Under the pieces are notes generated by a model that saw only the letters and a program-made list of their open reading frames with translations, was not told the origin of the DNA and did no database searches. Of a stretch of DNA of 64,000 nt, positions 36,373 to 37,929 are shown piece after piece. The translations under genes and the position numbers were made by a program. Source of the DNA: Bacteroidota bacterium (lineage in GTDB: Bacteria > Bacteroidota > Bacteroidia > JAHEXY01); NCBI GenBank assembly GCA_023251875.1, contig JAHEXY010000010.1:62001-126000 (forward strand), read 5' to 3'. How positions within the stretch are numbered: position 1 is the first letter of the stretch; every line of letters starts with the position of its first letter.

Positions 36373-36444
36373 AATCCCGAAGGGATGGAATTATTATAGA
36401 AAAAAGGAATAAACAAAAAAATAAACCCCGAAGGGGTGAAATTA
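36373..36444 (+). repeat. REP doublet (BIME-like) copy 1, upstream of RAYT
   Basis: The 72-bp unit is REP-A AATCCCGAAGGGATGG plus ATTATTATAG, then about 24 unconserved bases, then REP-B AACCCCGAAGGGGTGAAATTA. Copy 3 has the same orientation and nearly the same spacing; copy 2 is inverted. Confidence 0.85.
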
Positions 36445-36456
36445 AACAATGGAAGA

Positions 36457-36918
36457 ATGCCAGGCACTTTTTCTCAAATGTATGTTCAAGTAATTTTTGC
36501 TGTAAAAGGCAGAACAAATTTAATTAGCAAAACAAATGAAGAAGAACTGTATAAATATATTGCCGGAATAATAAAAGGCAAAGATCAAAAATCAATTATT
36601 GTAAATGGCATGCCGGACCATATACATGCTTTTGTTGGTTTGCGGCCTTCAATGGCTGCTTCTGATTTGGTAAGAGACATAAAAAATAACTCATCCAATT
36701 TTATTAATGATCATAAATGGGTAAAAGGAAAATTTTCTTGGCAAGAAGGTTATGGAATATTTACCTATTCACATTCACATATAGAATCGGTTTACAATTA
36801 CATTTTAAATCAAAAAGAACATCACAAAAAGAAAACATTTCGTGAAGAATACATTGATTTTTTGAAAAAATTTGAAATCAAGTATGATGAGAAATATTTA
36901 TTTGAATGGATTGAATAA
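36457..36918 (+). CDS. REP-associated tyrosine transposase (Y1/HUH, IS200-like)
   Basis: The 153-residue protein is a Y1-type single-strand transposase. The HUH motif is His55 and His57 (MPDHIHAFVG), and the likely catalytic tyrosine is Tyr115 (SVYNYILNQKEHH). Relatives nick and join hairpin-forming single strands. The gene is bracketed by inverted REP doublets, which marks it as RAYT-like rather than a standard IS200. The ATG at 36457 is preferred over a GTG at 36436 that lies inside the REP palindrome. The stop codon abuts REP copy 2. Confidence 0.85.
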   Translation: MPGTFSQMYVQVIFAVKGRTNLISKTNEEELYKYIAGIIKGKDQKSIIVNGMPDHIHAFVGLRPSMAASDLVRDIKNNSSNFINDHKWVKGKFSWQEGYGIFTYSHSHIESVYNYILNQKEHHKKKTFREEYIDFLKKFEIKYDEKYLFEWIE

Positions 36919-36988
36919 TATCACCCCTTCGGGGTTTTAGCAGTATGTTATTGCGTTTGTGCTATAATAATACCATCCCTTCGGGATT
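36917..36988 (-). repeat. REP doublet copy 2, inverted, downstream of RAYT
   Basis: Read on the minus strand it is AATCCCGAAGGGATGG plus ATTATTATAG, about 25 bases, then AACCCCGAAGGGGTGATATT. It is also 72 bp and forms an inverted flank with copy 1. Confidence 0.85.
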
Positions 36989-37073
36989 GGTTGTTGAGCC
37001 CAATTCAAAATAGTAATATAACTACGATTAAAGTGTTGTCCTTATTAGAGAAATAAAACATTAAGAAAGTGTA

Positions 37074-37145
37074 AAGCCCGAAGGGCTGGCATTATTATAG
37101 AATAAATAATCTTGAGGAGTAAAAACTCCGAAGGAGTGATATTTA
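37074..37145 (+). repeat. REP doublet copy 3, beyond the RAYT unit
   Basis: AAGCCCGAAGGGCTGG plus ATTATTATAG, about 23 bases, then AACTCCGAAGGAGTGATATTTA. Stem bases differ from copies 1 and 2 in compensating pairs (GCCC/GGGC, CTCC/GGAG), so the hairpins are conserved although the sequence is not. Confidence 0.82.
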
Positions 37146-37235: not shown

Positions 37236-37279
37236 AAAAGTTTCCATTTTGGAAACCTTTTTGTACTTTTATACGTATA
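37236..37279. promoter_or_regulatory. Palindromes upstream of higB
   Basis: AAAAGTTTCC and GGAAACCTTT form an imperfect hairpin, followed by TTGTACTTTTATACGTATAA. TATACGTATA (37270-37279) is a perfect palindrome two bases before the higB ATG, a plausible HigA operator. Confidence 0.45.
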
Positions 37280-37281
37280 AT

Positions 37282-37575
37282 ATGAGAATAATTGCTAAAC
37301 GTACTTTAAGAGAATTTTGGGAGAAATACGCTGATGCGGAAACGCCATTAAAAGTGTGGTACAAAAATATTAGCGAGGCTGAATGGAAAAACAACAACGA
37401 ATTAAAGCGACAATTTAAAAATGTAAGTATTGTTGGAAACGACAGACTCGTTTTTAATATAAAAGGAAACACTTACCGATTAGTTGTTGCTGTTGATTAT
37501 GAAAAACAAATTGTTTGGATAAAATTTATTGGCTATCACAAAGATTATAATAAAATAAATGTAAAAACCATATAG
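37282..37575 (+). CDS. higB: HigB-like mRNA interferase toxin
   Basis: The 97-residue basic protein matches the HigB_toxin family: MRIIAKRTLREFWEKYADAE, a W-Y-K-N pattern, and NTYRLVVAVDYEKQIVWIKFIGYHKDYNKI near the end. It precedes the antitoxin by three bases, the inverted gene order typical of HigBA. The ATG at 37282 gives the standard N-terminus; an upstream TTG at 37249 lies in the regulatory hairpin. Confidence 0.87.
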   Translation: MRIIAKRTLREFWEKYADAETPLKVWYKNISEAEWKNNNELKRQFKNVSIVGNDRLVFNIKGNTYRLVVAVDYEKQIVWIKFIGYHKDYNKINVKTI

Positions 37576-37578
37576 AAC

Positions 37579-37929
37579 ATGAAAATAAAACCCATTTTAA
37601 CAGAGAAAGATTATCAAGTAGCATTAAAGCGAGTTGAAAAAATTTGGGGCTCAAAATTAGGAACTGCAGAAGGAGATGAACTTGATGTTTTATGTACTTT
37701 AATTGAGAAATATGAAGATAAATATTATCCTATTGAAGCTCCTGATCCGGTTGAGGCCATAAAATATGTAATGGAAGAAAAGGGCCTGGAAAGAAAAGAT
37801 TTGATAAAAATTATTGGAAACAAAAGTAGGGTATCAGATTTACTCAATAAAAAACGTGAGCTTTCAAAAAATATGATAAAAGCACTTCATGAACACTTGG
37901 GCATTTCGTATGAAATTTTAATGGCTTGA
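37579..37929 (+). CDS. higA: HigA-like antitoxin (XRE helix-turn-helix)
   Basis: The 116-residue protein has the HigA N-terminal region (ILTEKDYQVALKRVEKIW...GTAEGDELDVLCTLIEKYED) and a C-terminal XRE helix-turn-helix (GLERKDLIKIIGNKSRVSDLLNKKRELS). It neutralises HigB and probably represses the pair through the palindrome upstream. Confidence 0.88.
   Translation: MKIKPILTEKDYQVALKRVEKIWGSKLGTAEGDELDVLCTLIEKYEDKYYPIEAPDPVEAIKYVMEEKGLERKDLIKIIGNKSRVSDLLNKKRELSKNMIKALHEHLGISYEILMA

Follow-up and report, generated by a model that had tools for sequence, protein, structure and literature searches.

A subclass 1.2 Y1 transposase gene of a Bacteroidota bacterium lies between inverted two-hairpin doublets in a REPtron-like arrangement

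Elements of the IS200/IS605 family transpose by strand-specific nicking and via a single-stranded circle. RAYT proteins carry the motif NP(L/V)(R/K)xG (PMC2817692), and TnpAREP nicks single-stranded REPs at CT (PMC8266576). The motifs of TnpA-Y1 subclass 1.2 are given in the survey of Quentin et al. 2018 (PMC6006769), which describes the subclass as 'no REP' and generally devoid of terminal secondary structures. A search of the open-access literature found no account of REP-like repeats for this subclass, which does not prove that none exists. Here we describe a gene of this type and its repeats in a 64,000-nucleotide stretch of a Bacteroidota genome (the window), where a window coordinate equals the coordinate on contig C17 minus 62000. 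The novelty lies in tying subclass 1.2 to a two-hairpin unit that is conserved and polar, which departs from the published description.

The gene, tnpA (36457-36918, + strand), encodes a Y1/HUH transposase of 153 aa, in which PDHIH, SWQEG and YILNQKEHH represent the DH[IV]H, WQ and Y---Q--HH motifs typical of subclass 1.2. A C-terminal tail of ~30 aa extends past the Y1 core, and the overall length agrees with the ~150 aa of the subclass. The ATG at 36457 is the likely start, because the GTG at 36436 falls within a hairpin; in the 160-aa frame counted from that GTG, the Pfam Y1_Tnp match (E 6e-24) stops at residue 126. The NCBIfam equivalog model for IS200/IS605 transposases, NF033573, scores 66.2, above its cut-off of 55, and the model for REP-associated transposases, NF047646, reaches 24.7 bits, below its cut-off of 80. 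The RAYT motif is absent from the protein, which has ILNQKEHH after the catalytic tyrosine. Its AlphaFold model (mean pLDDT 75) finds its best structure matches in the TnpA of ISDra2 and IS608 (E ~1e-7) and a weaker one in the REP-bound TnpAREP 4er8 (E 1e-4). By motif, not by tree, we assign the predicted protein to TnpA-Y1 subclass 1.2, on the IS200 side of the superfamily. PADLOC has no match for the transposase, no relative of it was found in viral contigs, and plasmids hold a few relatives that are at most 58% identical. The sequence-only reading had called the locus a RAYT unit; the function of a REP transposase stands by analogy, and the family name falls with the models, the motifs and the position of the box 3' of the hairpin. 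The locus probably works like a REP-RAYT system while lying outside the sequence criteria of the RAYT family, and 'RAYT' should be replaced by 'subclass 1.2 TnpA with REPtron-like hairpin system'.

Three doublets of ~72 bp with their boxes had been described at this gene, and a motif search of the window recovered them in place: REP-A (CCGAAGGNNTGGNATTATTATAG) occurs with 0 mismatches at 36377-36399 (+), 36962-36984 (-) and 37078-37100 (+), and REP-B (CCGAAGGNGTGA) at 36428-36439 (+), 36921-36932 (-) and 37128-37139 (+). REP-A was never found in shuffled windows (expectation 0), and REP-B averaged 0.35 sites and never reached 3. Doublet D1 (36374-36446, +) consists of hairpin A ATCCC-GAA-GGGAT, the box TGGAATTATTATAG, filler, and hairpin B ACCCC-GAA-GGGGT with a TGA box that lacks TAG; it ends immediately 5' of the tnpA start codon, with 19 nt between the end of the inner hairpin and the ATG. 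Doublet D2 (36917-36989, -) is inverted relative to D1, and the + strand reads the box CTATAATAATACC and then hairpin A. The claim that two doublets enclose the Y1/HUH gene in inverted orientation is correct, as is the one that the stop codon (36916-36918) adjoins a doublet, hairpin B of D2 starting 4 nt past it. Doublet D3 (37074-37145, +), with hairpin A AGCCC-GAA-GGGCT, TGGCATTATTATAG, filler and hairpin B ACTCC-GAA-GGAGT, is the head-to-head partner of D2. The doublet cores span 36374-36437 (64 bp), 36923-36987 (65 bp) and 37075-37137 (63 bp) for D1, D2 and D3, and the hairpin centres lie 51, 52 and 50 nt apart, in line with the constant spacing noticed earlier. The compensating stem pairs can likewise be read directly from ATCCC/GGGAT, AGCCC/GGGCT, ACCCC/GGGGT and ACTCC/GGAGT. 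DNA folding gave z from -2.1 to -3.5 across the three doublets: D1 (z -2.1) and D2 form two hairpins each, and D3 (z -3.5) keeps its first hairpin with the second shifted in the best fold. A search of Rfam yielded sub-threshold chance matches only. A HigB-like toxin and an HTH antitoxin (37249-37929) directly adjoin D3; in PADLOC they match components A and B of PD-Lambda-2, component B over the first 118 of 402 positions only.

The same layout recurs in relatives. We sampled the flanks of 80 named loci from Bacteroidota, Ignavibacteria, Chlorobiota and one planctomycete. Hairpin units number 3.14 per kb up to 400 bp from the gene, vs 0.15 per kb in the rest of these loci. At least one side bears a unit oriented as expected in 72/77 loci with both flanks, and both sides do in 31. 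The nearest upstream unit is on the + strand in 61/66 cases (p 3e-13) and the nearest downstream unit on the - strand in 35/44 (p 1e-4); when shared contexts are counted once, 48/52 loci have the expected unit, with p 2e-7 and 1e-3. The strict tail TTNTAG, with 74 + units upstream vs ~1 in shuffles, missed the Chryseobacterium clade, and the tail was widened after the first result had been seen. In the unit, hairpin A is followed after exactly 7 nt by TTRTAG, and a free filler of ~26 nt separates this box from hairpin B, which lacks TAG. Arrays consist of exactly two hairpins in 57/64, and the gene-proximal hairpin lacks TAG in 62/64. The distance between hairpin centres peaks at 50-52 across the loci, so that the proposed conservation of spacing extends beyond the window. 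Selection on the hairpin, also proposed from the window, is borne out by a test that does not presuppose the hairpin: sites chosen by TTRTAG alone pair fully (5 bp) at offset 7 in 81/132, vs 0-6 of the 132 with five perfect pairs at any other offset, and the 81 offset-7 hairpins comprise 17 different stems. TTRTAG is found on the 3' side of the hairpin; the sequence on its 5' side is rich in A and shows little conservation. The distance between boxes tracks that between proteins (Mantel r 0.51, 0/2000 permutations), a result equally expected from shared descent of linked gene and repeats, from which coevolution is not separated. Two loci deserve separate mention. In L053 (6494-6737), the unit is locally duplicated, so that the doublet region and the start of tnpA recur in tandem downstream (244 bp at 86%); L052 carries tandem arrays of ~51-nt units on both sides of the gene, whose near-identical filler suggests recent array expansion.

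In its own genome, the window family is at minimal copy number, that is, the gene and three doublets. The REP-A motif at up to 3 mismatches has no site in the whole genome beyond this gene except for a single 3-mismatch match, which adjoins another Y1 gene. The genome holds seven Y1 genes, namely that of the window, five others with the Y...Q..HH motif, which are 28-53% identical to the window copy, and one more; Y, Q and HH are invariant in all six Y...Q..HH copies, and each of the five others lies between palindromes peculiar to it. The search for sibling doublets covered 1.66 Mb and required a hairpin, then T[TA]NTAG, and another hairpin at a distance of 40-62 nt. It listed 36 matches from several stem families, among which C11:197757 is entered on both strands and C22:252253 has a different layout. 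Many doublets related to the repeats of the C11 tnpA lie far from any Y1 gene. The expectation that further doublets would be found in the genome thus failed for the window type, which has none away from Y1 genes, and held for sibling types of the same geometry. Several dispersed sibling doublets form head-to-head pairs of ~140 bp or more (C5:72713, C5:93407, C5:114408, C11:224174, C17:27765, C22:9153, C22:10753, C22:283885 and C22:390578), and in our reading each of the nine pairs a TGCCC/ACCTC-type doublet with another of ACGCC or ACACC/ACCGC type. They occur in either orientation, some with a decayed hairpin, and the window pair D2-D3 has the same head-to-head order. D3 therefore belongs to the structure, D2 and D3 being arranged like the dispersed units of the sibling family. 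The fillers of the dispersed units are divergent, and therefore the spread in this genome is not recent. A second dispersed palindrome family, with 5-6 hairpins in mirror order (G000 C5:175692, C5:184714, C15:196920 and C22:429546), resembles the hairpins around the tnpA at C5:316022 and is flanked by further inverted repeats.

Among 59 class-level relatives, the REP-A motif at up to 2 mismatches is present in 13, with 0 for a reversed-pattern control, and all 13 carry a transposase of this type, one as a fragment only. The sequence-only reading would have had to give way to abundant doublets in genomes devoid of the transposase, and none were seen: the motif is in 13/38 genomes with tnpA vs 0/21 without (Fisher p 0.002). 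When the gene is limited to the same clade, by a cut-off (best E up to 1e-58) chosen after seeing the table, the motif is in 12/20 genomes vs 1/39 others (p 1e-6). Genome G028 combines a single transposase with 68 motif copies (up to 1 mismatch allowed; control 0), and many of these form tandem arrays, with a period of 52-53, across numerous contigs; three other genomes hold 23, 16 and 15 copies with one transposase each. These copy counts are uncertain, because many matches lie at contig ends and draft assemblies often break at repeats.

Taken together, we consider it probable, at roughly 0.7, that the locus is a REPtron-like system with a largely resident subclass 1.2 transposase able to act in trans on its hairpin doublets. 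The architecture, its conservation and orientation, the covariation of repeat and protein, the dispersed copies, the presence or absence of the block and the purifying selection on the gene were observed. By analogy with the biochemistry of IS608/ISDra2 and TnpAREP, we propose that the enzyme binds the hairpins, on one strand, and where it would cut; that it drives the dispersal is likewise a proposal. The HUH transposase would most likely bind the hairpins, with their 5-bp stems and 3-nt loops, in single-stranded DNA and nick between the two of them, at or beside TTRTAG, which reads CTAYAA on the complementary strand. Doublet copies could then be carried in trans to new sites, singly, as tandem arrays (period ~52) or as head-to-head pairs, while the gene would mostly stay put and be inherited vertically, with the whole D-tnpA-D block occasionally gained or lost. 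Counting against this reading, the doublet type of the window has no copies away from its gene. The order of hairpin, cut motif, spacer and hairpin resembles the right-end/left-end junction of an IS200 circle, as in IS608, a comparison that serves as a lead only. With slightly less than even confidence, we hypothesize that subclass 1.2 represents a second, separate origin of the REP-RAYT type of partnership, from the IS200 branch, in which the circle-junction-like doublet would be the minimal substrate and the head-to-head pair the dispersed element.

The movement of the block bears on an alternative that we regard as unlikely, namely that the gene belongs to an autonomous IS200/IS605 insertion sequence whose inverted-doublet ends are incidental and whose D-tnpA-D block is mobile as a whole. 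The NCBIfam score above the equivalog cut-off agrees with it, and so does the presence or absence of the whole block at the fadB-fadA junction. About a third of 30 sampled junctions of the genus Chryseobacterium hold the block; others are short (L306, 31 bp) or keep doublet-like remnants without the gene (L308, L295), and still others contain an unrelated gene (L285, L292-L294, L296, L297, L300, L301, L304, L307, L309, L310, L312 and L313), which by our reading is of a four-helix-bundle type, has ~120 aa and is bracketed by AT-rich repeats. Flavobacteriaceae junctions are mostly empty or hold that unrelated gene. The junction looks as if it were an insertion hot spot. Since the site is found occupied or empty, the block has been gained or lost whole, yet it is long resident: D-tnpA-D stands at this one orthologous site in 16 Chryseobacterium and 5 Flavobacterium species, which speaks against an autonomous element. 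In Lacihabitans and Leadbetterella the gene occupies one site, and the upstream array differs. The block common to L073 and L079, 91.7% identical over 715 bp in unrelated flanks, is what a mobile block would produce; however, the shared stretch runs past the doublets and ends at an extra terminal inverted repeat, and therefore another element may have moved it. This outer imperfect inverted repeat (TAGCCGTCAACYTAAG core) encloses D-tnpA-D in a stretch reaching from ~135 bp upstream to 580 bp downstream of the tnpA start, and its core also occurs in 10 viral contigs. Further evidence against autonomy is that copies within a genome are diverged, as are the five others in the own genome from the window copy, other same-genome pairs being 61-84% identical, and that classical members lack terminal inverted repeats (PMC2817692). 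A variant in which the equally oriented D1 and D3 are the left and right IS200 ends was rejected, because the general rule in relatives is + units upstream and - units downstream, and additional, alternating doublets often accompany the gene.

Full domestication, in which the hairpins regulate or terminate tnpA and its neighbours and nothing moves now, appears improbable to us. Its best arguments are the strong purifying selection on tnpA at fadB-fadA (dN/dS 0.08), the long residence at one site and the position of hairpin B, at a median distance of 21 nt upstream of the start and 13.5 nt downstream of the final sense codon, but it does not account for TTRTAG standing invariantly 7 nt from hairpin A, for the lack of TAG on hairpin B or for similar 52-53 nt units being dispersed in tandem arrays at sites remote from the gene. 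Ordinary transcription terminators that are alike by chance can be dismissed, for although GC hairpins are common in intergenic DNA, the chance expectation in the window is 0, the units are associated with the gene, and the offset and polarity, fixed across genomes, contradict it in the offset and orientation tests.

Subclass 1.2 is on record as lacking both typical IS ends and REPs. If the doublets are the substrate of the resident transposase, it would acquire a likely function, and Bacteroidota a widespread family of mobile hairpins for which we found no earlier description. It would then become possible to test whether the domestication of a transposase with trans-mobilised hairpins arose twice. 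The sharp rules of the unit (offset 7, TTRTAG, spacing of 50-52, inner hairpin without TAG) make the mechanism testable with short oligonucleotides.

Compared with the known systems, the locus shares with IS200/IS605 elements such as IS608 and ISDra2 the fold, the catalytic motifs and small hairpins near a short cleavage motif, and both the protein model and the structure matches place it there. Those elements do not end in inverted doublets and often occur in near-identical copies, whereas here the ends are inverted and the copies diverged. TIRYT genes and TIRtrons (Di Nocera 2013, PMC3733652) also have a Y1 transposase gene between terminal inverted repeats, but their proteins are mostly of subclass 2.1, and their repeats, often with GGGGWSAS, mostly differ from the two-hairpin layout. 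REP-RAYT systems or REPtrons of Proteobacteria (Nunvar 2010, PMC2817692; PMC8266576) are alike in the Y1 gene between inverted palindromes (here D1 + and D2 -, as is general in relatives), in the combination of one gene with many repeats in some genomes, in repeats that vary with the protein, in the residence of the gene and in the occurrence of pairs and arrays. They differ in that the enzyme here is of the IS200 side and lacks NP(L/V)(R/K)xG, the box stands 3' of the hairpin and no GT[AG]G foot abuts its 5' side, the doublet is polar with two hairpins at fixed spacing, and the copy number is low, with 3 window-type copies, all at the gene (up to 68 in another genome), in place of abundant genomic repeats. 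With TnpA-Y1 subclass 1.2 the locus agrees in Y---Q--HH, DH[IV]H, WQ, the size of ~150 aa, the C-terminal tail, the low copy number and the occurrence in Bacteroidetes, but nearly all of the related loci examined here have paired hairpins beside the gene. Because 'no REP' is a general tendency and not a criterion of this MCL-defined subclass, we take the 72/77 loci as correcting its description.
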